DNA of 64,000 bases from assembly GCF_009730915.1 (NCBI RefSeq), contig NC_052488.1, forward strand, positions 20,764,305 to 20,828,304. Reading direction: 5' to 3'. Positions 5,852-62,800 of this stretch are shown here, piece by piece; the first letter of the stretch is position 1, and every line of letters starts with the position of its first letter. The notes beneath the pieces were generated by a model that saw only the letters and a program-made list of their open reading frames with translations, was not told the origin of the DNA and did not search any database. The stretch comes from Dioscorea cayenensis subsp. rotundata. Taxonomy: Eukaryota; Streptophyta; Magnoliopsida; Dioscoreales; Dioscoreaceae. The translations under genes were made by a program, and so were the position numbers.

Positions 5852-6931
5852 TCAAACAGAGGTGCTGTCCTGGTTCTTGGCCGAGAGACGCTTCAAGAAC
5901 TCATAGGTGGTAATCATTGTGGTTGCAGACATTGACATTGATGCCCAGCGGGGTCCGAGTCCACGATAACAAGCACCCCAACCCCCTTCTTTTAATAAAT
6001 TTCTCATGGTCCTGCCAATGGTTATAGCTGAAGATCTCTTATTGCTACTCCTTCCTCCACTGCTATCATCATCCATCACCTGCATTCTCGTTTTTATTGT
6101 GTCCAGAGGCATTGTTACCAAGCATGACGCACCGCCCGCCATTGCTGCACTAACACCTTGCACAACTGCCACCATCTTGTAGTCTGGCCGGAGCCCAGCA
6201 GTACCCCCTTCCTCCGGTGAGCTGTCACAGTCACCTCGCCGGCATAAATAATATCCAATGCCTCCCCATATAATCCTCTGAGACACCGAATATGAAGCCC
6301 ACCAGACTGCATTGGAAGGGGCGTACGTCAAGATTGACATCCCAAAGCCTCGGTATAGACCACGAAGTCCATCCGATCTCAAGATCTTCCAGAATGCATC
6401 TATACCACCAAGGTACTTCGTCGGGCTAGGGTTTTGTGAACCCTGTACCATGAGACGTTGGCTGATTACGTCAATTGGCGTCCACACGATTTGCGAGGCC
6501 ATGGCTGCACTGAGACCCGCTGCAGCGCTAGCGGCCGCAGCTGCTGCCGGCTCAGCGACACCAAGGCGGGATGCTGCAGCACCAACAGCACTCTTTGTGA
6601 CCTCGAGCGCAGTCATGTAAAGAGCACGAGCAGGGATGGTCCCTGTGAGGGATGTAGCAAAACCGCGGTAAAATCCACGTGGGCCATCATGGTGGAGGAT
6701 CGCCATGGCGGCGTGTCGGCAGGAGAGCGGCTGAGAAGAGCACTGCAGCCGGGTCTTGAGAACGACCGCGGGGTACAAAACGAAAGAGACACCAGAGAAA
6801 AGGGCGGCTCCTAAAACAAAGAATCGCCACTTGTCAAGCATCTCCCAATCGATCTCTGCAGGAAGCTGGATCTCCGCCGATGCCGCCGGCGGTGATTCCT
6901 CCTCGACTTCCCCCACCGCCGTGAGGTTCAT
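5852..6931 (-). CDS. Mitochondrial carrier family protein, SLC25A44-like
   Basis: Single-exon gene of 359 aa with an ATG at 6931. It shows the threefold carrier repeat: signature cores PAVVLK (residues 54-59), PIDVIS (152-157) and PLDTIK (275-280). Each is followed by a basic residue pair and later by a G-x-x-x-x-Y-R-G block (FYRGF, LYRGF, CYRGL). The length and long loops fit the SLC25A44-like plant carriers. The animal SLC25A44 moves branched-chain amino acids across the mitochondrial inner membrane; the plant substrate is inferred, not shown. The first signature has Val where an acidic residue is usual. A run of telomere-like CCCTAA units lies just upstream of the ATG, in the probable 5' leader. 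Confidence 0.9.
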   Translation of the reverse strand: MNLTAVGEVEEESPPAASAEIQLPAEIDWEMLDKWRFFVLGAALFSGVSFVLYPAVVLKTRLQCSSQPLSCRHAAMAILHHDGPRGFYRGFATSLTGTIPARALYMTALEVTKSAVGAAASRLGVAEPAAAAAASAAAGLSAAMASQIVWTPIDVISQRLMVQGSQNPSPTKYLGGIDAFWKILRSDGLRGLYRGFGMSILTYAPSNAVWWASYSVSQRIIWGGIGYYLCRRGDCDSSPEEGGTAGLRPDYKMVAVVQGVSAAMAGGASCLVTMPLDTIKTRMQVMDDDSSGGRSSNKRSSAITIGRTMRNLLKEGGWGACYRGLGPRWASMSMSATTMITTYEFLKRLSAKNQDSTSV

Positions 6932-6980
6932 CTCCTCCCGATCTCGCCTCCCACCTATCTCTACGACCTCTCCTTCATCT

Positions 6981-7008
6981 AAACCCTAACCCTAACCCTA
7001 ACCCTAAT
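6981..7008 (-). repeat. Telomere-like CCCTAA run in the 5' leader (telo-box)
   Basis: Four CCCTAA-type units in a row about 50 bases upstream of the carrier ATG. On the gene strand this reads as TTAGGG units. Plant promoters and leaders, especially of translation-related genes, often hold a single telo-box AAACCCTAA. Several in a row could be an expanded telo-box or a scar of break repair with telomeric DNA. Confidence 0.7.
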
Positions 7009-16718: not shown

Positions 16719-18374
16719 TTAGACATTTCCATCCTTGATAGGGCCTTCATTATTGCCAAATCCTTCAATCAATGAAATATAAGTACTATCATCAGGATTG
16801 ATACCATTTCTCACCATTTCTTTGAGTAGTTCCTCAGCATGCTCACCTTCACCATTCTTGCATAATCCTTGTATAAGCGCATTGTAAGTAAGAAGTGTAG
16901 GATTGAAGCCCTTGCTAAGCATCTCATCACGAACTTTTAAAGCATCTTTCGTATCACCTTTCCTGCTATAACCACTGATCAAAGTATTGTAGCTAATAAG
17001 ATCAGGTTTAATGCCGTGTGTTGTCATCTCATTAAGGAGCTCGCGAGCTTCCTCAACTTTTCCCAACAAGCAAAGCCCTCTCATTAGCGTATTGTAAGTA
17101 ACATCGTCGGGTGTGATACCTTTCTTCTTCATCTCCTTCAAGAGAGCAAATGCCCGCACCATGTCACCCTTCGCACAATGTCCGTCAATCATTGCATTGT
17201 ACATGACAAGGTCCGGAGAAAAACCTTTCTTCGCTGCTTCTCTGAACAATTTATCGGCATCCACAACTCTGCCCTTCTTGCAAAGAGCATAAATAAGTGA
17301 TGTGTATGTGACTGTTGTAGGACTAACACATTTTCTTGACATCTCCGCGAAAAGCTGAAATGCCTTCTTTACATTCCCATCTTTGCAATGCCCATTAATC
17401 AAGATATTGTAAGTAACCGCATCGGCTTCTATCCTCTTCCCTTCCATCTGCTTCAATAACTCATCGACTTCTTTACTCCGTCCATCCATAAACAATCCAT
17501 GCACAAGCAAATTATAAGTGCGCACCGTCGGCTCAATCTCCCTCCTCGACATCTCATTCCAATAGTCAAATGCAACATCTAACAAACCTTTATTACAATA
17601 CCCATCAATCAATGCATTGTATATCATGGCAGTAGGTGTCAATCCTCTTTGCAGCATTTCATCAAACAACTTGACTGCATCCTCAACCCTCCCACCTTTG
17701 CACATTCCAGCAATAATGGTTCCATAACTATAATCATCAGGCTCAATTGCTTTACTTCTCATCAATTTCAACATCTCCAAAGCAACCCCAACCTTCCCTT
17801 TGTCACAATGGCCACGAATTATAGTGTTGAAAGTAACAGCAGTGGGATTGATTCCAGTGTCCTCCATGAACTCCACAAAGGCCAAAGCTTTCCGCAGCTT
17901 CCCTTCTTTGCAAAGCAAATTGATCATGATGTTGTATGTGATAACATTAGAAGAGATTCTCAACCTGAACATTTCAGCATACAGCACCCAGGCATTGTGA
18001 GGTTGGTTGGTTTTCAAGAACGAGCTGAGGATTTTGTTGCAGGCATCGATGGTAGGCATCAAGTTGGAGCCTTTCATGAGGTAGAACAGTTCGAGAGCGG
18101 TGTCGGGACGGCCGGAGTCGGAGTAGGCGCGGAGAAGGAGGTCGAGGGAGGAGAGGGAGTGTTGAAGAGAGGGGAAGAGGACGGAGAGGGATGGGAAGTG
18201 GGGGGAGGCGAGGGAGTCGGTGAGGAAGCGGAGGGCGGAGGAGGGTGAGAAGGAGGCCAGGCGGAGAAGAGAGGTGGAGACGTCGAGGCATTCGGTGGCC
18301 GGCGCCGGCGCGGTAGAAAGGTAGCGGGGAATGAGAGCGCGAAGACGTCGGTGAGCGATGTCAACGGTTTTCAT
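16719..18374 (-). CDS. P-class pentatricopeptide repeat protein
   Basis: Single-exon gene of 551 aa from the ATG at 18374; the frame is open upstream but has no earlier ATG. The start (MKTVDIAHRRLRALIPRYL) is basic and lacks acidic clusters, as in a mitochondrial presequence. About thirteen 35-residue PPR motifs run head to tail from about residue 80 to the C-terminus, plus a partial last one. They carry the usual cores such as VTYNILINGHCKDGNVKKAF. There is no E, DYW or SMR domain, so this is a plain P-class protein. Such proteins bind one organellar RNA each and aid its splicing, stability or translation. Residues 5 and 35 of most repeats are N with D or T, suggesting a pyrimidine-rich target. 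The RNA itself is not identifiable here. Confidence 0.93.
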   Translation of the reverse strand: MKTVDIAHRRLRALIPRYLSTAPAPATECLDVSTSLLRLASFSPSSALRFLTDSLASPHFPSLSVLFPSLQHSLSSLDLLLRAYSDSGRPDTALELFYLMKGSNLMPTIDACNKILSSFLKTNQPHNAWVLYAEMFRLRISSNVITYNIMINLLCKEGKLRKALAFVEFMEDTGINPTAVTFNTIIRGHCDKGKVGVALEMLKLMRSKAIEPDDYSYGTIIAGMCKGGRVEDAVKLFDEMLQRGLTPTAMIYNALIDGYCNKGLLDVAFDYWNEMSRREIEPTVRTYNLLVHGLFMDGRSKEVDELLKQMEGKRIEADAVTYNILINGHCKDGNVKKAFQLFAEMSRKCVSPTTVTYTSLIYALCKKGRVVDADKLFREAAKKGFSPDLVMYNAMIDGHCAKGDMVRAFALLKEMKKKGITPDDVTYNTLMRGLCLLGKVEEARELLNEMTTHGIKPDLISYNTLISGYSRKGDTKDALKVRDEMLSKGFNPTLLTYNALIQGLCKNGEGEHAEELLKEMVRNGINPDDSTYISLIEGFGNNEGPIKDGNV

Positions 18375-18692
18375 TGTTTCTGGAGCGTAGTTGGAATCCG
18401 GGGAGTGATTGAAGAGGGAGTTGGACGAAGTGATTGCAAATATACCCCTCAAAAAAGGAGAAATTTTTATAATATGTTGGCCCTGTGTATGAGATTTAGT
18501 GGTAAGTTAGGGTTTATTTGCAAAATTTAATATTGTGGAAATTTACAAGGATGTCATATTAATCACTCAACCGTTAAAAATTAAGTGTTTTTTCTACATT
18601 GATTCACAAATAAAACATGGAAAAAGCGTAGCCAAGGAAGCAGTAATTGAAATACAAGCATGCTGTGTGCAAAATGGTGTTTGATTGGGGCA
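18375..18692. other. Short spacer between PPR promoter and HUB2 3' end
   Basis: About 300 bases holding the PPR gene's 5' flank and the HUB2 3' UTR. No separate feature is visible. Both genes are on the minus strand, so the PPR promoter must sit here or inside the HUB2 3' UTR. Confidence 0.6.
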
Positions 18693-34008: not shown

Positions 34009-34274
34009 AGTGGCCCATATTATATTCACAATCATTGGTTAACAGTTGATATTTAAAACGAACTTACAAGATAAGCCTCTTGCGGAGCCTCTGGGTCGCT
34101 CCTGGCGGAGGTGGCGGTGGCGGTGTAGGCGGGAGGAATCAGGTGACTTCCAGGCAGCTTGCTGACGACTTTAGTGAAGGAGATCAAACACATATAAAGA
34201 AGAACTTCACCTACGCGCAAGCTGCAAGCTCTTCATCGTCGGGAGATGCAAAACAGGTGAAGAAGGGAGCCAGT

Positions 34275-36749
34275 ATGAGCAACAGTGGTAGCTCGGCGGG
34301 TCAGGTGAAGATGGCTGGATCTAAGCGACCTAGATCACCGCAGGAGAGTACGTGTGGTCGATGCTTCCAATCTACGCACAAAACGGCGGACTGTAGGCAC
34401 CAGGTCGTGTGCTTGCGGTGCTCGTGCGTAGGTCACATGGCGGCGAGGTGCACCGTTGAACCAAGAAGAAGTCCACACCGAAGGAAACTCCATGTTCGTT
34501 CAAAGCGAATGGATAAGTTTGCGGATTCGACTACGCTGCCGGTTGAGAAAGACCTGAGATCTGGTTCGAATGCTAAGTTGGTTCACACTGGACCTAGGCC
34601 GTCTCTCTCGATTGCATTGTCTCCAGATTCTGAGAATCTGAGAGAGGAGCTTGCGAGAGTCGCAGTGCTCACGCTGACTAAGGGATTCGTCAATGAAAGT
34701 AGCTTGCTTGACGCCATTCCGTCCATCATTAACAAGGAGCTTGCAGGCCCTGTTACTCCTTTGAATGACTGCACTTTCTTGCTGCCGATGGAGAGTAGAG
34801 TGGAGGTCAAGGATCTATGCAGGCTAGGTACTTTCTCCGCAACGACTATAGATGGACCGTGTTTGCTTCATATATCTCCGTGGTCTGCTGAGCTGGGAGC
34901 GGTGGGGAGGGCGTCGGGAGAGGGGCAATGGGTTCACATTTGGAACCTGCCCCTTCATGCTTGGTGCTGGCCCATTATCGCGGAGGTACTCAGGCCGGTG
35001 GGGGAGTTGGTCACTCTTTCGCAAGCAGAGGTTAAGCATAAATATTTCATCTCTACGCTTGTGAGGCGTCGAGCAGGGGTTTCGCTTCCTCTGGTGCTGG
35101 ACCTCAGCATGGGGATGAGGAAATACCAGGTTTTGTTCACAGGAGATGGCGGCGCGCTCCCGGTGTTTCGGCGTGAGCTGGGAAGATACATACTTGATTC
35201 AATGGAGGATGGAGCGGCTGTGAAGTCGGGGACGCAGGTTCAACCTGAGGGGGAGGCTAGGAAGGTGACTGATAAAGGGAAAGGAAAGGTGTTGGTTGAG
35301 CTGAGCTCCCACACCGGACTGCGGATCGATGGCGAGGCTCCGACTAGGCCAGCAGTGATTGCTGGTTCGGAGAAGGTGCCAGGGGTCTTGATGTTACCGA
35401 AAGTGGTCGAGCTTTGCTCCCACGGTGGTGCTGATGCGAACGTTCCGCGGATTCGGAAGATTGGGCGTCAGACCGGTGGTTTTCCGGTTGAGCCGGGTCA
35501 GACTGATGGACTTCGACGGGCTCAGTCTCCCGAGCGGAGGCAGGTGCTGCGAAAGAAATGGGTGCGGACACAGGGTACGGGAGAGTTACGTGTTGAGCAT
35601 GGAGGCTTTCGTCAGTCGTTGGACCACGTTAAGGATCCGCTGGAGCAGGTTAAGGTGACTCGTGGCCTTCTCGCGGCGTCCGAGGTTGGGGCGGCATTTG
35701 TTAAGGATGGGATGGATCACGTTAAGGAAGGGGCGGAGCACTTTAAGGATTCTATCACGTGGGGAGGCGGGGTTGATGTGGAAGGTGTTCCGCTGGACCA
35801 GGTTAACAACTCTGTTGGGCCGACTGAGAAGTTGAATCAGAAGAAGTTAAAGGCCCATGAAGTGGATGTGGAAGGAACTTGCTTTGATGACTCTATTGCG
35901 CTCATGATTGGGCCGCTTGAGAACACGGCCCATAGAGCTCGGCCTGAGACAGATTTGGATGTAGGGAATCCCCTCCTTATTTGTGATGTGGGCCTGCAGG
36001 TGGGCCGGCCTTGTGTGTCCAAGCCTGAGTCAGTTTTAGGAAAGGTTTTGGATACTGGGGACAGAGTTACTAGGGATGCAAGAGGCAAGCAGATAGGAGA
36101 AGAGACCCGAGCGCCAGTGCAGTGGTCGAAAGTTAATTTTAAAGACAACTCAACGGTACCGATGATTGATCCCCTCGATGGTTTTCTTTGGCAATTTATT
36201 GAGGGGGGATGGGCACTTGTGCCGGTTCTAAATCAGGAGGACACAGGGGGTTGCAGTGGCACTGATTTGATGTCAGAAGGGGATGAGGGCTCTATTGATC
36301 GCCCTACCGATGATGTGACTTTGGGAGTCGAAGTTGAGTCGGACGACTCGGCTTCCGAGTTCGAGAGGAACCTTAGGGAGCTGTTGCCTGGTTTGCAGGG
36401 TGGTGTGGAGGCTATTGGGCAAAGGCAAGCTACGGGACTCAGGAAAAGCGAAAGGTCTAAAAAACGGTCTTCCCGTTTCACTGAAGATGCTGGGTATTTG
36501 ACTGAACCACCCAAATCGACCAAGAAGAAAGGAATGGTGACGGAGGAGGTGCAAGGTACTAGCTCTAAACCGCTACTTATTTCAGATTGGTCTAATGTGC
36601 AAATTGCTAGCTACTGTAATGCATGTGGCATTTCATTTACTGAGTCTGTGGATGCATGTGTGAACCATATTCGTTCGTTAGAGCTGTCTCGTGCTATGAT
36701 TAGTAAAGGGTCTCGGTGGCAACTCCTCTCGGGGGTTGCGGGGAACTAA
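34275..36749 (+). CDS. LINE ORF1 protein, two CCHC knuckles
   Basis: The frame is open from at least 34080 (889 codons), but the first ATG is at 34275, giving about 824 aa. Two CCHC zinc knuckles (CGRCFQSTHKTADC and CLRCSCVGHMAARC) lie near the N-terminus. They are followed by a DUF4283-like region (LNDCTFLLPMESRVEVKDLC, WVHIWNLPLHAWCW). The rest is low-complexity, rich in charged residues, with a repeated HVKD/HVKE/HFKD pattern around 35620-35760. ORF1 proteins bind LINE RNA in the cytoplasm. The knuckles precede the DUF4283-like part, whereas a C-terminal position is more usual. The TAA stop is in the same frame as ORF2. Confidence 0.85.
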   Translation: MSNSGSSAGQVKMAGSKRPRSPQESTCGRCFQSTHKTADCRHQVVCLRCSCVGHMAARCTVEPRRSPHRRKLHVRSKRMDKFADSTTLPVEKDLRSGSNAKLVHTGPRPSLSIALSPDSENLREELARVAVLTLTKGFVNESSLLDAIPSIINKELAGPVTPLNDCTFLLPMESRVEVKDLCRLGTFSATTIDGPCLLHISPWSAELGAVGRASGEGQWVHIWNLPLHAWCWPIIAEVLRPVGELVTLSQAEVKHKYFISTLVRRRAGVSLPLVLDLSMGMRKYQVLFTGDGGALPVFRRELGRYILDSMEDGAAVKSGTQVQPEGEARKVTDKGKGKVLVELSSHTGLRIDGEAPTRPAVIAGSEKVPGVLMLPKVVELCSHGGADANVPRIRKIGRQTGGFPVEPGQTDGLRRAQSPERRQVLRKKWVRTQGTGELRVEHGGFRQSLDHVKDPLEQVKVTRGLLAASEVGAAFVKDGMDHVKEGAEHFKDSITWGGGVDVEGVPLDQVNNSVGPTEKLNQKKLKAHEVDVEGTCFDDSIALMIGPLENTAHRARPETDLDVGNPLLICDVGLQVGRPCVSKPESVLGKVLDTGDRVTRDARGKQIGEETRAPVQWSKVNFKDNSTVPMIDPLDGFLWQFIEGGWALVPVLNQEDTGGCSGTDLMSEGDEGSIDRPTDDVTLGVEVESDDSASEFERNLRELLPGLQGGVEAIGQRQATGLRKSERSKKRSSRFTEDAGYLTEPPKSTKKKGMVTEEVQGTSSKPLLISDWSNVQIASYCNACGISFTESVDACVNHIRSLELSRAMISKGSRWQLLSGVAGN

Positions 36750-36860
36750 CTTGTTGTTTATGAATATTATAAACCTGGGAACGTTAGGGGTCTAGGTAGG
36801 CCAGCGAAGAGGTTTCTAGTTAAGGATTTTCTGCATTTACATTATGCTGATGTATGTTGT

Positions 36861-39800
36861 TTGCAAGAAACAAAACTAGAGAGTTTCTTACCGGCTACCT
36901 GGAGGGAGATTGGGGGTAGTAATCTTGATCAGTTCGAATTCATTCCGGCGAAGGGTTCCGCGGGGGGTATTGTCATTGGGTGGAATAGCGTGTTAATGGA
37001 CGGGACTCTTGTTCCGGGAGGGGGGGAGTTTTGCCTATCGGTGGATTTCGTGACTAAGAAGGATAAATCAAGGTGGCGATGTACAACGGTTTATGGGCCT
37101 ACTGAGCGATCGCGCAAGTCGGTGTTTTGGAACGAGCTTCGCGGTTCCAAAGGTGCTGTGGGGATCCCATGGGTTATTTGTGGAGATTTTAATGCAATTT
37201 TAAACGTGGCAGACAAATCAAATGGTAACTATATTTGGGAAGACATCAGGAGGGCCAATGAAATTAAGCATGATTTGGAACTGCAGGAACCCCCGTCTGT
37301 GGGGAGGAGATTCACGTGGACCAATAACCAAGAGGAACCTATTTGGGTGAAACTCGACCGCTTTCTGGTTAATTGCGAGTGGTTAAGTCACTTTCCTAGA
37401 GTGATTCAAATGACCCTCCCGCGGTTGGGCTCGGATCATGTGCCGATTAGGCTGGAAGTTGGTAACCACTATTCTAGACCTAGACCTTTTCGGTATGAGA
37501 AGGTTTGGTCTACTTCGGAGGGGTTTCATGATTTGGTGAAACAATGGTGGGACGAGAGCACACATAGGGGGTGTGGTGCGTTTATTCTGTCTAAGAAAAT
37601 TGCGGGGGTCAGGGAGCGCTTGCGTCAGTGGGCTAAATTCAGCTTTGGGTCGATCAAACTGAAAAAATTAGCCTTGATGCATGAAATTGAGGATCTGGAC
37701 ACGGCTAAGGAATCAAGATGCCTTACTCTTGGTGAGCTCCAGATAGAAAATGATATTCACTTGAAGCTTGAGGATATTCGCAAGCAGGAAGAGGTCTATT
37801 GGAAACAAAGATCGAGGACTCAATGGATCAAAGAGGGAGATGAAAACACTAAATTCTTCCATGCGGTGGCGAACGGTCGGAAGAACCGCAACTTCATCCC
37901 GGGCCTTAACCAGGGAGGGGCTACGATTGTGGACCCCAGTGAAATTGGAAAAGTGTTCAGTGCACATTTTAAGCATTCCTTTGGTAGTCAACGGGATTTT
38001 AGAATGAGGGTCGATCTCCAACATCTATTTCAATTAAAGAACCCGGTGGATCTGTCTATATTGGAAGATCCGTTCTCTATCAAAGAAATTAAAAGGGCAG
38101 TGTTTGAGTTAGGTAGTGATAAATCCCCAGGGCCTGATGGTTTTCCTATCCATTTCTTCAAGCAATTTTGGGAATTGGTTAGTGGGGACCTCAGTTTGCT
38201 ATGTGAGGATTTCTATTGGCATCGTGCTAATCTGGAGCGGATTAATTGGGCTAGTATCGTGCTTATTCCTAAGGTGGATACTCCGGAGTCCCCGGGGGAT
38301 TTTAGACCCATTAGCCTGATTAACTCTTCGCTTAAAATTATCTCTAAAGTATTAGCTTCGAGGTTGAGTAAGGTGATGAATCAGTTAGTGGACAAGGAGC
38401 AATCTGCTTTTCTCAAAGGGAGGTGTATCATTGATAATATTGCAACATCAGAGGAACTTATTTTCAGTATTCATAAGAGGAGGTTGCCGGGTCATATTTT
38501 GAAAGTGGATTTCAATAAGGCGTTCGATCGTGTAGATTGGGGGTTTCTCCTGGATCTACTGAGAGCTAGGGGCTTTGGGGAACGCTGGATTGGTTGGATC
38601 AAATGCATTCTGGTATCTTCGAAAGCGTCAATTTTGGTTAATGGCTCACCTAACGGTTACGTTCGCTACAAGAGCGGGCTCCATCAAGGAGATCCATTAT
38701 CACCTCTGTTGTTTGTATTGGTTACGGATGTTTTGAGTTCTATGTTTGTTCATGCCCTGAGATCTAAGATCCTGGTGGGGGTCCCCCTAGGGGAATTCGG
38801 CAGTAGATGTAATCTACATTATCCTGACGACCTGCTTGTTTTGACAACGGGGGGTCTGGAGGATTTGAGGATTGTGAAATTAATTCTTTATTTGTTTGAG
38901 GGGATGACAGGTTTAGCTACCAATTTCTCGAAAACGTGCCTTTTTTCTTCGACTTTGGGGAAGCTCCCTGAGAGAGATGCGGAGGAAACCCTTAGCTGTG
39001 CCAGGGGATTGCTTCCAGTCACGTATCTTGGTATCCCGATCTCTGGGAGAAGGCCAAGGAAACAAGATTGGGAGGGGCTTATTGCTAAGATTAGGAATAG
39101 GTTGGCGTCGTGGAAAGTGAGGCACGTTTCCCTTGGTGGTCGCCTAACGTTGGTCAATGCGGTTCTTACTGCAATACCTACATATTGGATGTCTATATTC
39201 AGGCTTCCTGGTTGGGTCATTAAAGCGATTGACCGGATTAGACGTGACTTTCTCTGGTCTGGGGCGGACTTTGACCACCCGAGATGCAGACTTATTAGTT
39301 GGCAAAATATCTGTCGTGGACGTGACCAAGGGGGTTGGGGTATATTGGATCTTAAAAACTTCAATCACGCGCTTGTGGGAAAGTGGTGGTGGAAATTTTT
39401 GACTGACCCAGGATGGTGTGGTGCTGATGTTATTCAATTCAACTACGGCATGGCCCGTTGGAATATGTTCCCTAGGCATTCGGGTCGGATGTCTTTCTTC
39501 TGGAAAGGAGTTGTGAGTTGTCTTCCGGCCTTTAGGAGCTGTATTGTCCATGGTATTGGAGCAGGGAGGGAGACTTTATTTTGGAAAGATAACTGGCTAA
39601 ATGGCAGAGCACCTATGTATATTTGGCAGGAGGAATTTCGTAGAGCTTTTGATACTTTTGGCACTGTGCGGGATCTAATATCACTGTTATACCAGCCTCC
39701 ATTCTGTTATGAGGGGGATGTCACTTCGTTCAGGGATCGATGGAGATCGCAGGAAGGGGTGTTAGGGGACACAAAAAGATGGCGTTTGACTGGGAATGGT

Positions 39801-40439
39801 AGTTTCACTGTTAAATCTTTTTATTCCTTCCTGAACGACGGTGGGCTGCGTTGCCCGGTTGCGAAGTTTTTTTGGAAGAGTACTTGCCCGAAAAAAATCA
39901 ATATCTTTAATTGGTTAGCTTGGAAAAATAGGACCCTCACTTTGGCGAACTTGGAAACTAGAAGGTGCAATCGTCTTCCAACTGCTACATGTGTGTTGTG
40001 TCACGCGGCAATTGAAACAGTTGATCATCTCTTCTTACATTGCTCGATGGCGAAGCTGGTGTGGAATTATTTTAGCAGATTGTTCAAGCTTCCTGAGCCG
40101 CCTAATAGCCTGCTTCAGTTATGGGGTGATTGGAGGTTATCGATCAAACCGGACCATAGAGAGTTAGGGGTCTTAATTGTGAAGTCGATTGTGTGGAACA
40201 TCTGGCTTGTTAGAAACGATTGCATGTTTAATGCTAATTTGATGTCTGCTCATGTGCTTTTAATGAAGATTGATCGTATGTTATTATCCTGGTTTTCTAC
40301 AGTTCCTGAAAAATCGAGAGCCAAGATGGAGGACCATTCTTCTACAATCAGGCGTAGTCTGGAGTTCCTTACTTCCACTGGGGAGGAGCAAGGTGGAGCA
40401 TCGTTTCAGGATGCTGGGCCCGATACGCATACTGGCTAG
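36861..40439 (+). CDS. LINE ORF2: endonuclease and reverse transcriptase
   Basis: About 1,192 codons without a stop. The endonuclease comes first (LQETKLE, GDFNAIL, RLGSDHVPIR), then the reverse transcriptase (DKSPGPDGFP, FRPISLINSSLKI, KVDFNKAFDRVDW, GLHQGDPLSPLLF). A zinc-binding domain (FFWKSTCPKKINIFNW, TCVLCHAAIETVDHLFLHC) ends it. The catalytic YADD box reads YPDD (38820-38831). The coordinates start at a TTG inside the endonuclease. The frame is open back to the ORF1 stop at 36749. The usual start (an ATG followed by an IITWNVRGLG-like block) appears at 36762 but is put out of frame by two extra bases. No RNase H domain is present. Confidence 0.93.
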   Translation: MQETKLESFLPATWREIGGSNLDQFEFIPAKGSAGGIVIGWNSVLMDGTLVPGGGEFCLSVDFVTKKDKSRWRCTTVYGPTERSRKSVFWNELRGSKGAVGIPWVICGDFNAILNVADKSNGNYIWEDIRRANEIKHDLELQEPPSVGRRFTWTNNQEEPIWVKLDRFLVNCEWLSHFPRVIQMTLPRLGSDHVPIRLEVGNHYSRPRPFRYEKVWSTSEGFHDLVKQWWDESTHRGCGAFILSKKIAGVRERLRQWAKFSFGSIKLKKLALMHEIEDLDTAKESRCLTLGELQIENDIHLKLEDIRKQEEVYWKQRSRTQWIKEGDENTKFFHAVANGRKNRNFIPGLNQGGATIVDPSEIGKVFSAHFKHSFGSQRDFRMRVDLQHLFQLKNPVDLSILEDPFSIKEIKRAVFELGSDKSPGPDGFPIHFFKQFWELVSGDLSLLCEDFYWHRANLERINWASIVLIPKVDTPESPGDFRPISLINSSLKIISKVLASRLSKVMNQLVDKEQSAFLKGRCIIDNIATSEELIFSIHKRRLPGHILKVDFNKAFDRVDWGFLLDLLRARGFGERWIGWIKCILVSSKASILVNGSPNGYVRYKSGLHQGDPLSPLLFVLVTDVLSSMFVHALRSKILVGVPLGEFGSRCNLHYPDDLLVLTTGGLEDLRIVKLILYLFEGMTGLATNFSKTCLFSSTLGKLPERDAEETLSCARGLLPVTYLGIPISGRRPRKQDWEGLIAKIRNRLASWKVRHVSLGGRLTLVNAVLTAIPTYWMSIFRLPGWVIKAIDRIRRDFLWSGADFDHPRCRLISWQNICRGRDQGGWGILDLKNFNHALVGKWWWKFLTDPGWCGADVIQFNYGMARWNMFPRHSGRMSFFWKGVVSCLPAFRSCIVHGIGAGRETLFWKDNWLNGRAPMYIWQEEFRRAFDTFGTVRDLISLLYQPPFCYEGDVTSFRDRWRSQEGVLGDTKRWRLTGNGSFTVKSFYSFLNDGGLRCPVAKFFWKSTCPKKINIFNWLAWKNRTLTLANLETRRCNRLPTATCVLCHAAIETVDHLFLHCSMAKLVWNYFSRLFKLPEPPNSLLQLWGDWRLSIKPDHRELGVLIVKSIVWNIWLVRNDCMFNANLMSAHVLLMKIDRMLLSWFSTVPEKSRAKMEDHSSTIRRSLEFLTSTGEEQGGASFQDAGPDTHTG

Positions 40440-45691: not shown

Positions 45692-46654
45692 TCACACATT
45701 AATATTGATCCAGTGAAAACTCTGAGGCTCAACTTCGCGCTTAATCACACGAGTTCTACAAACAGGACAAAACGAAGACATTTTAATAAACCAAGGATCA
45801 ATGCACTTCTGGTGAAACATATGTTTGCAATTTGGCAAACTCCTCACTGTCTCCCCTTCTTCAATCTCATCCAAACAAATCACACAAACCTTCTCTTCAG
45901 AATCATTATCAACATTACTAGTTATAGAACACACACAATTCTGTACTCTTGTGCCATAATTTATCTTCAGTAACTTCAACAGCATCACAAGAACACTCAC
46001 AGTTCTGTACTCTTGTGCCATTATCTTCATTAACTTCAGCGGCATCACAAGAACACTCACAGTTCTGTATTCTTGTTCCATTATCTTCATTAACTTCAGC
46101 AGCATCACCAGAACACTCACAATTCTGTACTCTTGTACCATTATTTTCAGTTACTTCAGCAGCATCACCAGAACACTCACAATGCTTGACTCTTGAAGCA
46201 TTATCTTCAGTAACAGCAGCAGTATCACAAGAACACTCACAATGCTTGACTCTTGAATCAGTATCTTCAGTAACAGCAACAGTATCACAAGAACACTCAC
46301 AATGCTTGACTCTTGAATCATTATCTTCAGTAACAGCAGCAGTATCACAAGAACACTCACAACTCTTCACTTTTGAGTCATTATCTTCAGTAACAGTAGG
46401 GGCAGTATCAGCAATAGAAGAAGAAGAAGAAGAAGAAGGTTTTTTTTGTAGATGATGAGGGGAATAGTGGCAAGCTGTTTGTTGCACTCGTTCAAGTCAT
46501 GTTCCGCTAATTCTATGCCCGGCCACACGTCGGAGTTTTGCTCCTCCTCGTCGTCGTCGTATTCTTCTTGCCTGAGCTGCCGTGTTAGGATTTGAAACAA
46601 GAGAAGGAGAATCCAAAAGATTAAGCACATGATGATTAAAACTATATGTGCCAT
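45692..46654 (-). pseudogene. RING-H2 gene with 60-bp Cys repeats, frame-broken paralog
   Basis: Paralog of the intact gene at 48925-49623. The N-terminal anchor (MAHIVLIIMCLIFWILLLLF) and the RING-H2 (CVICLDEIEEGETVRSLPNC..HMFHQKC..CPVCRTRV) are in one frame. The repeats between them are readable only in another frame. An A8 run replaces the A6 of the intact copy (46440-46447, +2), and four extra bases near 45956-45962 shift back (+4). In the outer frame stops occur inside the repeats. The repeats number seven and a half, each 60 bp, with the core HCECSCD. It has a good TATA-like TTATAAAAA at about 46700. Most likely a recent pseudogene; sequencing error at the homopolymer could explain only the first shift. 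Confidence 0.75.
45950..46396 (-). repeat. 60-bp coding tandem repeat, about 7.5 units
   Basis: Units of exactly 60 bp encode 20 residues each, of the pattern V-T-E-D-N-x-[ST]-R-V-[KQ]-[HN]-C-E-C-S-[CG]-D-x-A-[AE]. Units fall into two subtypes, KHCECSCD and QNCECSGD/CD, grouped in blocks, as expected from stepwise unequal crossing-over. Confidence 0.95.
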
Positions 46655-48924: not shown

Positions 48925-49623
48925 TTAATATATATTGACCCAGTGAAAACTCTGAGGCTCAACTCTACGGTTAATCACACGAGTTCTACAAACAGGACAA
49001 AACGAAGACAGTTTAATTAACCAAGGATCAATGCACTTCTGGTGAAACATATGTTTGCACTTTGGCAAACTCCTCACTGTCTCCCCTTCTTCAATCTCAT
49101 CCAAGCAAATCACACAAACCTTCTCTTCAAAATCATTATCTAACTTACTACTAAGAGAACACTCACAATTCTGTACTCTTGTGCCATTATCTTCATTAAC
49201 TTCAGCAGTATGATCACCAGAATACTTACAATTCTGTACTCTTGTGCCATTGTCTTCAATAACATCAGCAGTATCACAAGAACACTCACAATGCTTGACT
49301 CTTGAATAACTATTCTCAGTAACAGCAGCAATATCACAAGAACACTCGCAACTCTTCACTCTTGAGTCATTATCTTCATTAACAGTAGCATTAGCAGCAA
49401 TAGAAGAAGAAGAAGGTTTTTTGTAGATTATTATGGGAATAGTAGCAAGTTGTCTGTTGCACTGGTTCAGGTCATGTGCCGATAATTCTACGCCATCGAA
49501 GTTTTGCTCGTCATCGTCATTGTCATTGTATTCTTCTTGCTCTTGATACCATCTTAAGAATTTATACAGTAAGAAGAGAATCCAAAAGAGGATGTTCAAG
49601 ATGGTGAAACCTATATGTGCCAT
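48925..49623 (-). CDS. Membrane-anchored RING-H2 protein with CECSCD repeats
   Basis: Intronless, 232 aa, ATG at 49623. The order is: a hydrophobic N-terminal segment (about residues 4-24); an acidic stretch; QLATIPIIIYKK, which recalls the conserved segment before the RING in ATL proteins; four repeats of 20-21 residues (81-160) with cores SCECSCD, HCECSCD, NCKYSGD and NCECS; then a RING-H2 with C170, C173, C189, H191, H194, C197, C209, C212. RING-H2 proteins of this layout are membrane-bound E3 ubiquitin ligases. The Cys repeats are not part of any ATL domain I know; they could bind metal or form disulfides, which is inference. A frame-broken paralog lies 2.3 kb away. Confidence 0.88.
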   Translation of the reverse strand: MAHIGFTILNILFWILFLLYKFLRWYQEQEEYNDNDDDEQNFDGVELSAHDLNQCNRQLATIPIIIYKKPSSSSIAANATVNEDNDSRVKSCECSCDIAAVTENSYSRVKHCECSCDTADVIEDNGTRVQNCKYSGDHTAEVNEDNGTRVQNCECSLSSKLDNDFEEKVCVICLDEIEEGETVRSLPKCKHMFHQKCIDPWLIKLSSFCPVCRTRVINRRVEPQSFHWVNIY

Positions 49624-57013: not shown

Positions 57014-59808
57014 GGATCGAATGGTTTGGGTTCTCGCGGGCATCGGGGTGGATAACGTGTAGGGGTTTTCAAAGGCGTTCAATTTGATCAACGGTCTGGG
57101 ATGCATCGTGATCTGGATTTCCTGATGGATCTTGTGATGGACGGTTAGATGGTGATTTCTCAAAGTTTTTATGTTAATTTCTTACATTAATATTTATACT
57201 TTAAATAGAATTTTTTTTTAAAAAAAATTAGCTTTACTTCCTCACTTTTCCCTTTTCAAAATTTTCAAATAAATATTATATTTACTTTTAATCGCATTTT
57301 AAATTTATTTATTATATATATTTTTAAATTAATTTTATTAAAATAAATAACAATACAAAACATGACATCACCAAAACCTCAATTCTATGCAATATTAAAT
57401 AAAGTTTCAACCAAAATTTATAAACCCGGTGAGAGCATATTAGTCAGCGTTAAACTCTGCTCCTTACACGTGCACATCTCTGATTTACCCTTAAATGGGG
57501 GGTGCTTGTTGTCTATGTGTTAAAAAAAAATTTATAAATCCGGACATGGCTAGTGGATCTGACCAAATAAACCCAAAAACAAACTTAAGACAAGTTCAAT
57601 TCAATAACAATCTTAAGACAAGTCGGATTCAATTGAAAACCCCTAATTTGAAAAAAACTTGGATTAAACTTGTGACCCAGCGGGTTTTTTTTTACCCGGT
57701 TTGCATTATTTTTTTTTGCTAGTTCAAAAAAAAAATATATATATATATGATTCCTTTATCTATTATGATCTATTTATTCATAGTTGTGAATACTCAAAGC
57801 TTAGCTGGTTAAGGCACCCTTATTAAGGCGGGTCTTGAGTCCCACTTGCTTGCAAGGATTTTTTATATAAATTTAATTTTTTTTTAATAGTAAAATTTCA
57901 TGCTCCCATTAAAATGCATTGTTTTTTATTTTTATTTTATTTTAGAGTCATTTGGGGAAGCCGATAATGCAAACAATGATTCCGAAGACTTTGAATTAGA
58001 AAATATTCTTAATTATGAAATCATGCATGGGTTTAAGTTCAAAGATTTTTGTTTGACTCATTTCTATGACATGGTTGAAAATTTATATATATAAATGTCA
58101 TGATTTATACAAATTATTAAAATATATAAAAAAAATAATATAAATGTGAATACTTTTATGTTTTATAGTTACAGATTTCATAGTCGTGTGTTCCATATTT
58201 ATGTTTCTAATTTGTCGAGATTTGAACATGTTTATTTTTATGTTGTTGGTGTGCTTAAATATTTATTTATAAGACATAATTAAATAAATCTTTAAAAGTT
58301 ATATTTAAAATTTTTCTATTCTTCAATATTAAAATATAAATTATATTATACATAAAAATTTGATCTAATTTAACCCAATTTAACCTCTCAATCCTTTGAC
58401 CTTTGATCTTTTTGAATCAAAATCCTTTTGAAAACTTTAGCTCTAATATCCATCACTAGTTAAAGGGGAATTACAAAAATAACTGGGCTCTGAAAGGAAA
58501 ACGGTGAAAAAAAAAAAAATCCTTTTAGAAGAAGATTATCTATTGTGGGTGACACTCAACTGGTATCATGTATACTAGTGGCAGTCAACCAGCATCATGG
58601 ACAAGTAGCACACACGTGTGTGTATATATATATCTTTATTCAATTTTATATGGAATGTTTTTCATTAAAAAAAAAAAACCATACCACCTGTTATGTGAAT
58701 GTACTGAATATAGAAACTGCGTTCACTGGCAAAAAAACACATAGTTATAACAAATATAAAAAAATTAATTTAATTAATGTAAAAAAGAAATATGATTAAT
58801 GTGAAATTGAAATTAAACTATACATAATAAATATCAAATCTGCAAAATATATGATTTAATTAAATATAAAAATAAAGAACATAATGGAACTCAAGACTAA
58901 ATAAACCATGTGATTTAAATCTAATTAACTCATAAGTGGACACATAATTAACGGAGTTTAAGAGCATGTTCTCGCCGCCCACGTTAACTCACCTAACCAC
59001 ATGGCATTCAATCCAATAAATAATACAACCGTCACACGTTTTACACGTGATCGAATTACATCTTGCGGTTCATATCGCGCCACGCACCCATCCGTACAAC
59101 GTCGACCAAGGCAGCACGTACATAAGTAACATAACATTATTGGTTCGGATCTTGTCCTTGTTTTCAGATCCGATATCTTTTCAGTTTCGGAGTCGGATCC
59201 TTCATTAGTAGTTTTTTCTTTTTTTAAATTCGGCCTTTAAAAAATATGCATAAGTCTCTCTGTAGCAAGTGAGTCAGGACCTATGCGGACCTTGGGACCA
59301 TTTACACATAACTATTATTAATACTTCAAAAAAAAAAATGTGAGCCCCAGATATTAATATATGAGACTCATATATTAATAATTTACTTCGTCATTAGTTT
59401 ATTTATTTATTTTTTTATTAAAATGAGTAGTTAATTGCTAAAAAAAATATAAAAATGTACAAATTTCAGCGAAATAAATGGAGATGGAACTGCACGTATA
59501 TATGAGTGATAAAATTACTCACATATAATTACTACTCACACTTTTATAATTCAAATTTTTTACTATTTGTGAGGATTTTAATGAGGCCCAATTATTAATA
59601 AATCAGTTGGTTATTCATTGATTTATTAGCTTAGCTGTTGGCAAGTTCACTGCAAATAAAGGTTACGTTACGTGATGAACTAAATCTTCCGGTTCGTTAT
59701 CGGATCCGAAATCGGATCTAGTATGAATCCGACCCGCATCCGCAAACCATCATCTTTGGACTTTTTTAAGAGCTGGTCATCTTCTTCCATTGCTGCGGTT
59801 CCTCTCTA
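57014..59808. other. Divergent promoter region, YlmG gene and PAA2
   Basis: The two genes point away from each other across 2.8 kb. Most of it is AT-rich. It holds a tRNA-like block (57795-57860), a TG/TA microsatellite near 58614-58634 and a G-box-like ACACGTGA near 59043. GTAC cores near 59092, 59118 and 59457 could be copper-response elements. The ORFs at 57495-57722 and 57900-58094 have no support. Confidence 0.5.
57795..57860 (+). mobile_element. tRNA-like SINE head, tentative
   Basis: TTAGCTGGTTAAGGC resembles box A and GGGTCTTGAGTCCC resembles box B, about 25-30 bases apart. A T-rich stretch follows. It lacks a full tRNA fold and I could not find flanking target duplications. Confidence 0.4.
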
Positions 59809-62800
59809 ATGGCAGCTTCTCTTCTCCAACTACCGATTCCTCGAAACCCTAAGCTCAAATCTCAATGCATCGTCCCTCGATTCTGGACTCCTTCTGTCCT
59901 GCTTCCGTTCCATCGTCGGCGGCGCCATGTCGCATTTACTCCCCTCGCTCGCGCTGTGGAGATTGGCGTGCCCGCCGGAGAACCAAAACAACAGAATTCT
60001 CCCCCGTCGCCTTTGCTTCTCGAGGTGTCAGGTATGATGTGCGGCGCCTGCGCCGTCCGTGTCAAGACCATCTTGTCTGCGGATCCGCGTGTTGAGTCCG
60101 CCGTCGTCAACATGGTGACGGAAACCTCCGCTGTGAAGCTGAAGCCTGGGGTTTTGGATGGTGTGGATGTTGTTGGAGTGGCGGAGGAGCTGGCTGGGAG
60201 GCTCACGGAGATGGGGTTCCCGGCGAAGAGGAGGGGGATGGGGAATGGGGTTGGGGAGAGCGTGAAGAAGTGGAGGGAGATGAAGGCGAGGAAGGAGGAG
60301 TTGCTAGTGAAGAGCCGGAACAAGCTTGCGTTTGCCTGGACGCTGGTGGCGCTGTGTTGTGGGGCTCATGCTTCGCATCTCTTGCATTCCGTTGGGATTC
60401 ACGTCGGTCATGGTACGTCTGATGACTTGTCTTGTTAAATGATTTGGCTCGGAATTCACTTCTTTTCTTTCTTTTTAATGCAAAGACTTGCTGATCTTGT
60501 GGTTGATTTTATCGCACATACCGATATGAGCATTTGATCTGTGCTTTGAGGGTCAAAATTAAGTGAATATTTTTTTCAAACAACAGAGAGTATTTGTGAG
60601 AAATCCAGAATAAGTTATGTGCTTGCGAAAATGATAATATTATTTGAAGGTCTTTTTCCCTAATCAATTCTGTGATATAAAATCCATTGCAGTGTAGTTT
60701 CTATATCCAGATTGTAAAGGAAGGGCATTGCCGTATCTGTGGAGAGTTGATTTGATCCCTGTTTACCAAACTTTTTTTATTATGCTTCAGAAGGACATAA
60801 GAGAACTGTCTTACCTGTATGCCATGCTTCTTCATTGGCTGTTGCTATTTTATTTGATTTGATTTGGTTGATGCAGGGTCTTTATGGGAGATATTGCAGA
60901 ACCCATATTTTAAAGGTGGAGTTGCTATGTTATCGTTACTTGGACCTGGTAGAGGTATGTACAACTGCTTTGCTCTAGCTGACTTGTTTCGTGGATTTTT
61001 GTGTTAGATGGCTGATAGGAATTTAGTTGCTGAAAATAAATATGTAATATTAATATTAATAATATCAAGTCCAGCCAAATATTTGAACACCATTTTTCAC
61101 TAAATATTAGGTTGGCCACCATCCTATTTTGTCATGCCCCCAAGTTGAAACAAAGATTTATAGTAACAAATAAAAGCTGAATTTGAAACCTTGTGGTATA
61201 TATATTCGGCGAAATGCTATACGAAGTCACTGCTGAATATTTCTGAACTTCAATGTGTCCATTACTAAGCAAATCTCCAATTGTAAGTGAAAGCTTGATC
61301 CATTGCTCTCTCACTTAATTAATATCGATCAAAATAAATGTTTTTAGATTAAAAATTCACCTCTCTAATTAATGATAGGTGTTTAATAAAATTGATATAT
61401 GTTATTAATATTAATTGTTAAATATATTTTTTAAAGTAAATAAATTTTTTAATAGAAGATTTGTTGGATAATCTTAGGGTGCTTGGTCAGTGCCATAGGG
61501 TAACCCCACAACCAAACAAACCCTAAAAGAATTCTGTATGTGCTTAAAAAATGATTTTACATGCTCATTTTCATATACATAAGCATTGAGAATTATTCCT
61601 TTCTGCGTGAACCTTTCAGATTTGCTGATAGATGGTCTTCGAGCATTCGTGAAGAGGTCACCAAATATGAACTCTCTTGTGGGATTTGGATCAATTGCTG
61701 CATTCCTGATTAGTGCAGTAAGTGGTTTTTATTGTTGACTTGGATTTAGATTCCGTATTAGCTTCCAAGTTGACTTCTTGTAGCCATGTTTCATCTATGG
61801 ATTTGTGATTTTGTTGATGTAGGTTTCACTTTTGAACCCTGAGCTTCAGTGGGAAGAAACATTTTTTGATGAGCCGGTGTGTTGTTCAATTTCATTTTAC
61901 TTGTAGTATTATCTTCTCCCATTTGTATGCTTTCACTCTGTAATATTCGTACATTTGATCATTAATAATTGAACCATATGTTCCATTAGTGAGTTTTGTG
62001 TGAGTGAACTACAATACAATATTACTATTTTATGGAAAAGCATCTAAATTTTTGTGCTCACTTCGTATCTCATTCAGTAGAAATAAGAACCTTTACTTGC
62101 TAAGGTTGTTTCTGGTCTTCTTTGTTGATGATCATATGCCTCATTTATCCATATATCTTCCAGATTATTAATATTAGTTTCTCCCTTTAGGTTAATTTTA
62201 AATTTTAGTTGAGCTTTGCCATTAGATTTTGTGGCATTTGATATTATTTCTCAAACTGGATTTCTATTACACTCAAGCTTCTAAAAGACAATGAGGATCG
62301 ATGATCATATGTAGTCTGATATCGATTTCATTACTTAGCTTTTGTTGTTCATATTTTTATTTTCAAAATTTGAATATGGATTTTGTTTTTGTTTTTTAAG
62401 AGAGTGCAATCTGAATTGTTTCTTTTGCTTGCAGAAGTTTTAGCACAGAATTCTGTCATCATGTATGTTAGTGTAGGAACTCCACCCTATTTTTGTGTAG
62501 AACATCTATGAAATAGTGTTTATATAGCCTTTTCATCTGGCAAAAGCAGTTTATCTATGAAATATCAAATATGAATTGTCCCTATTTCTTGTAGAAGTTT
62601 AATATAAGAATTTCTCATTTTATCAAATTTCTTTTTGTAGTATGCAGGTCATGCTTCTTGGTTTTGTTCTTCTGGGGCGTGCTCTTGAAGAAAGGGCTAG
62701 GCTTAAAGCATCTAGTGATATGAATGAGCTCCTGGTAAGTTGACATTTCTTTTGACCTTTTGAGCCTGTTCTTTGTCTGGTGTTGTATTTTGGTAATTGA

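Follow-up and report, generated by a model that had tools for sequence, protein, structure and literature searches.

The closest described counterparts of the gene studied here are the ATLs. As set out in PMC3161093, the ATL layout comprises an anchor, a motif, a spacer and a RING-H2 domain, and the family is defined by the exact ligand spacing of a canonical 42-residue RING-H2; the GLD motif is given there for about 82% of ATLs, and tandem gene arrays are reported for the family (PMC3161093, PMC6118397). Within a stretch of 64,000 nucleotides from Dioscorea cayenensis subsp. rotundata, hereafter the window, we found an ATL-like RING-H2 gene, copy A, that carries a tandem array of 60-bp units between its motif and its RING. 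Copy A lies on the minus strand at 48925-49623, was delineated from the list of open reading frames and by Pfam, and matches itself with 100% identity in the source genome at C18:20813232-20813927. It is a single open frame of 232 codons at exactly the positions given in the preliminary description, and the feature is real.

The membrane anchor proposed for the product is borne out by a hydrophobic N-terminus, with the best 19-residue Kyte-Doolittle windows falling over residues 1-24 (up to 2.13), and by a confident modelled helix; hydropathy and pLDDT together place it at residues 2-24 (49552-49620, minus strand). The AlphaFold2 model of copy A (mean pLDDT 49), built on a six-sequence alignment in which one sequence is the RING frame of copy B with the array read out of frame, has a helix at residues 2-39 with the first 30 residues confident (ten-residue blocks at 91, 97 and 88), pLDDT below 50 for residues 36-166, and blocks over residues 171-210 at between 69 and 82, followed by blocks at 59 and 52. 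It suggests, rather than shows, that the linker is disordered, because the alignment is shallow. The anchor is followed by a GLD-like segment, HDLNQCNRQLATIPIIIYKK (residues 50-69; 49417-49476, minus strand), which can be aligned in the cluster relatives but has none of the GLD letters and is weak as a motif, resting on a loose HDLN...IPIIIY resemblance. Next come a 99-residue linker with nine cysteines in all and a RING-H2 domain at residues 170-212 (48988-49116, minus strand) with the pattern C-x2-C-x15-C-x-H-x2-H-x2-C-x11-C-x2-C.

This RING matches Pfam zf-RING_2 with E=7.3e-14 and lies near the solved RINGs of RNF13, Arkadia and EL5 in sequence, RNF13 being its best PDB sequence match (E=3.4e-15). 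It had been called a canonical RING-H2, and all eight ligands (six cysteines and two histidines) are indeed present, but the spacing departs from the canon: 11 residues separate ligands 6 and 7 and the domain measures 43 residues, as compared with 10 and 42 in the ATL-type genes L019 and L020 of the same genome. Further ATL features found in copy A are the N-terminal transmembrane helix, seen in hydropathy and in the structure model, a P-x-C at the third ligand (PKC) and a tryptophan three residues past the sixth (CIDPW). This tryptophan, Trp201, is invariant in the six-sequence alignment together with Pro210 and Arg213, and the three presumably have a role in E2 use. Because the RING spacing and the GLD letters depart from the family definition, the best reading of the sequence is that copy A encodes an ATL-like membrane E3 and not a strict ATL. 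Its earlier identification as a membrane-anchored RING-H2 ligase is supported to that extent, with ligase activity expected from the domain.

The repeat in the linker is not a product of chance: over 49156-49384, Tandem Repeats Finder reports a period of 60, 3.8 copies, 78% matches and a score of 258. In the coding direction (minus strand), it comprises unit 1, VNEDNDSRVKSCECSCDIAA (49324-49383), and unit 2, VTENSYSRVKHCECSCDTAD (49264-49323), each of 20 residues with three cysteines and the core CECSC; unit 3 (49201-49263), of 21 residues with the degenerate core CKYSG and one cysteine; and unit 4, VNEDNGTRVQNCECS (49156-49200), a partial unit of 15 residues that ends in CECS and has two cysteines. 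Of the four 20-21-residue repeats with a C-x-C-x-C core described previously, the repeat itself stands, but only units 1 and 2 have the full core, and the lengths are 20, 20, 21 and 15. Pfam gave no match in the repeat of copy A, and among the papers listed in a literature search none was on such a repeat to judge by its title, which does not prove absence from print. We also considered the openness of the repeat as evidence that it is coding and rejected it: the unit has three open frames out of six, and at least as many are found in 2484 of 20000 shuffled 60-mers (12%). The same property of the unit, repeated with a period of 60 bp, explains a 175-codon antisense frame that runs over the array of the neighbouring copy (45928-46455, plus strand).

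This neighbour, copy B (45692-46654, minus strand), is a tandem paralogue delineated from the open reading frames and by sequence comparison, with seven full units and a disrupted eighth; its array spans 45926-46394 (minus strand; period 60, 7.8 copies, 90% matches), and CxCxC is found in five of the seven full units, the other two reading CECSG. Its frame is broken by two length changes, of which one lies in a homopolymer and the other in the last unit outside any homopolymer; the array is therefore out of frame with the anchor and the RING, which share a frame, and copy B is for this reason probably a pseudogene. The identity between the two copies is 79% in the N-terminal part (161/204), 94% from the RING to the stop (200/213) and 45-48% in the 3' flanks, and silent differences fall at about 12 of 40 sites in the N-terminal part versus 3 of 40 from the RING to the stop (p=0.02). 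Such a shift in identity partway along the gene suggests that the 3' half has undergone gene conversion.

Elsewhere, the window holds a LINE-like element at 34050-40439 (plus strand), in which a frame with a sub-threshold DUF4283 match (E=3e-5) precedes one for a reverse transcriptase (RVT_1, zf-RVT), and ordinary neighbours in a mitochondrial carrier at 5852-6985 (minus strand), a PPR protein at 16719-18506 (minus strand) and an open frame with a heavy-metal-associated domain at 59770-60438 (plus strand). At about 42.5-43.6 kb there is a run of N of about 1 kb, translated as X, which is either an assembly gap or a stretch withheld from the sequence. Over the same window, neither Rfam at gathering threshold nor a tRNA scan gave any hit.

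Relatives were sought in one plant collection, the source genome (584,211,761 bases in 2249 contigs). A first search with copy A returned at least 149 matches (from the best 150 of 223 candidates scored), most of them RING-only, and the absence of arrays from these rests on searches with the repeat alone: the protein query found at least five places, five of five in copy A or B, and a 240-bp query of array DNA at least three, again all in copy A or B, so that nothing outside the two copies appears among the matches listed. Of the eleven hits of the whole-gene DNA query, one is copy A and two are copy B; C18 has three more, C174 has two, and C6, C468 and C1 have a single one apiece. Our reading of C18 took in the window, the 40 kb after it, where tblastn found no further copy, and parts of 20.6145-20.663 Mb; viral contigs searched with copy A held no stretch fitting the patterns.

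We read ten copies of the family, A and B plus eight others (L009, L010, L011, L012, L013, L018, L042 and L043), and copy A is the sole full-length open member among them, each of the other nine being truncated, interrupted, broken in frame or stopped early. In L009, about 400 bases interrupt the RING, the frame of L010 breaks ahead of its RING, L011 is open through the RING with a stop where copy A has W228, L018 has stops and frame breaks, the front of the RING is missing from L043, L042 is a C-terminal piece, and L012 and L013 are truncated, starting within a final unit with about 400 bp of common other sequence upstream. The array is absent from all five relatives with some linker left (L009, L010, L011, L018 and L043), L042, L012 and L013 being uninformative on the linker beyond their ends. 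L010 and L011, in the C18 cluster, share with copy A the alignable segment before the linker and a RING of 64% identity, but have no array, and L011 has one cysteine in its spacer; the more distant L015 (C11) and L014 (C468) share an IP-x-x-x motif, a RING with an 11-residue gap and, judged by eye in the translations, a hydrophobic N-terminal stretch, but have no linker cysteine. The C1 copy L016 is similar to L014 and L015, but has a tyrosine at a RING ligand. Between the motif and the first RING cysteine lies a spacer of 102 residues in copy A; L011, which is near-complete, has 44, L014 has 11, L015 has 9 and the ATL L020 has 14, and three further entries in this comparison offered no motif to measure from.

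As the linker-bearing relatives are without the array, its simplest origin lies in the lineage of copies A and B and two fragments, one on C174 (99% identical to copy A over 280 bases) and one on C6 (95% over 177), both of which begin at the same point in the last repeat unit. The truncated copies at L012:5048-5618 (C174) and C6:4719139-4719710 have the same breakpoint inside the repeat unit and, upstream, a common stretch of about 400 bp that is absent from the window, as if an insertion had broken one copy and the result had then been copied.

For the origin of the unit, we compared its consensus with sequence outside the array in ten targets at three window lengths. The linker/RING junction matches it at 37 of 60 bases in copy B (as good in 1 of 1000 shuffles) and in L010 (0/1000), and at 34 of 60 in copy A (14/1000); in all three the match is in frame and, read from the offsets, places the first cysteine of the unit on the first of the RING. 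An earlier part of the linker gives the best match in L009 (34/60, 2/1000; 25/36, 0/1000), L011 (33/60, 32/1000) and L018. At 60 bases, L018, L015, L014, L019 and L020 do no better than 81/1000, and at 36 bases L014 reaches 3/1000 and L018 6/1000. That the unit arose by amplification of the linker and linker/RING junction of the gene itself is moderately supported by these matches; the weaker junction match of copy A, and the best matches of L009, L011 and L018 elsewhere in the linker, weigh against it.

We think it fairly probable that copy A encodes an ATL-like membrane E3 whose disordered linker has been lengthened by in-frame expansion of a 60-bp minisatellite and acts mainly as a spacer. 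The N-terminal helix would hold the protein in the membrane with the RING in the cytosol, where the RING would recruit ubiquitin-loaded E2, and the disordered repeat would mainly provide a spacer of variable length, with the number of repeats setting the reach of the RING. The cysteines would have been carried along by the amplification of a single Cys-containing unit, itself probably derived from the linker and linker/RING junction of the gene, and they look like a by-product of the expansion rather than a proven metal sensor. A point against this account is that L012 and L013 show array-bearing sequence to have been copied elsewhere too.

A possible but doubtful alternative is that copy A is a duplicate already silent or decaying and its array neutral DNA in a disused gene. 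Nine of the ten copies read are broken, the TATA-like site upstream (a motif read by eye) is AATAAAA in copy A and TATAAAA in copy B, and the RING dN/dS between the two copies is about 0.6 (0.56 to 0.61, on 10 to 11 changes), all of which speak for this alternative. However, copy A keeps 232 open codons, its length differences from copy B in the N-terminal part are of 3 and 9 bases, and its RING dN/dS is 0.22 to L011 and 0.24 to L010; for copy B, the corresponding values are 0.34 and 0.37. When the RING differences between A and B are polarised by close outgroups, three silent and two amino-acid changes fall on A and none and one on B, with three further codons unpolarised; tiny as these numbers are, they too speak against a dying duplicate. 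On these comparisons the RING of copy A looks constrained, although the higher ratios of other pairs (A-B and those of copy B to L011 and L010, as above, and L010-L011, 0.64) also weigh against spacer expansion in a working ligase. The preliminary description had envisaged, as an outcome adverse to it, relatives without the repeats together with neutral decay of this locus: paralogues without repeats are what we find, but plain decay is not, because the frame of copy A is open and its RING looks constrained.

The preliminary description had raised the possibility of a metal- or redox-sensing domain. On such a proposal, CxCxC clusters would bind Zn, Cu or Cd, or else pair in disulphides, and so change RING activity at the membrane. 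The nine cysteines in the linker of copy A, CxCxC in two of its units and in five of the seven full units of copy B, and the near-invariance of the CECS core columns over the units are what this proposal has to offer, and we hold it to be improbable. A cysteine pattern conserved in every unit, as expected of a metal-binding Cys-rich protein, is not what the array presents, for unit 3 of copy A is without two of its three cysteines and unit 4 without one; the repeat used alone as a query finds nothing outside copies A and B among the matches listed, the five linker-bearing relatives are arrayless, and the repeat of copy A is without a Pfam match and predicted to be unstructured. Nor do differences among the units follow the codon: over eleven units, leaving out the disrupted eighth unit of copy B and one codon of unit 3 of copy A, variable columns are spread 9/9/9 over the three codon positions, a minimum spanning tree has 41 changes, 13 of them at third positions (p=1.0, at low power), and the ratio of amino-acid to silent differences stands at 0.70 when the units are read in the true frame, as against 0.64 and 0.72 when the frame is shifted and codons reading as stops are skipped. 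Because the differences are even over codon positions, protein-level selection on the array is not visible, at the low power of these data. The third positions of the CECS core are nearly invariant too; still, the near-invariance of the core could mean selection and, with the little power of a phase test on 41 changes, counts against spacer expansion. To a variant of the proposal, a young, lineage-specific sensor made by minisatellite expansion, we give very little credence; its CxCxC units, seemingly derived from the linker and the first RING zinc knuckle, would take up metal in the cytosol, or form disulphides there, and tune the membrane-bound ligase by their number. A metal sensor, if true, would matter more than a spacer, but the evidence does not lead to it. 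Mis-assembly of a tandem repeat, giving a false array length or false frame breaks, is hardly credible at all, for while repeats are prone to it and one break of copy B lies in a homopolymer, the other does not, and most units differ from one another, which makes assembly easier.

Under the preferred reading, spacer lengthening by minisatellite expansion, a membrane RING ligase duplicated in tandem could gain dozens of spacer residues by in-frame amplification of 60 bp, and a striking cysteine pattern could arise without visible selection. Should the number of units vary between accessions, these would form a natural series for spacer length in a membrane E3.

Metallothioneins have C-x-C motifs, and copy A has the motif in common with them but differs in that its nine cysteines lie in the 99-residue linker of a RING protein and its repeat has no Pfam match. 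The earlier statement that no described E3 family has this layout proves half right: the repeated spacer is unusual, but the remainder is the ATL layout as given in PMC3161093. With the ATL family as presented in PMC3161093 and PMC6118397, copy A shares an N-terminal helix, a motif before the RING, P-x-C, a tryptophan after the sixth ligand and an occurrence in tandem arrays, and it differs from that family in its 43-residue RING, in the absence of the GLD letters and in the repeat array that occupies the spacer (ATL region V).
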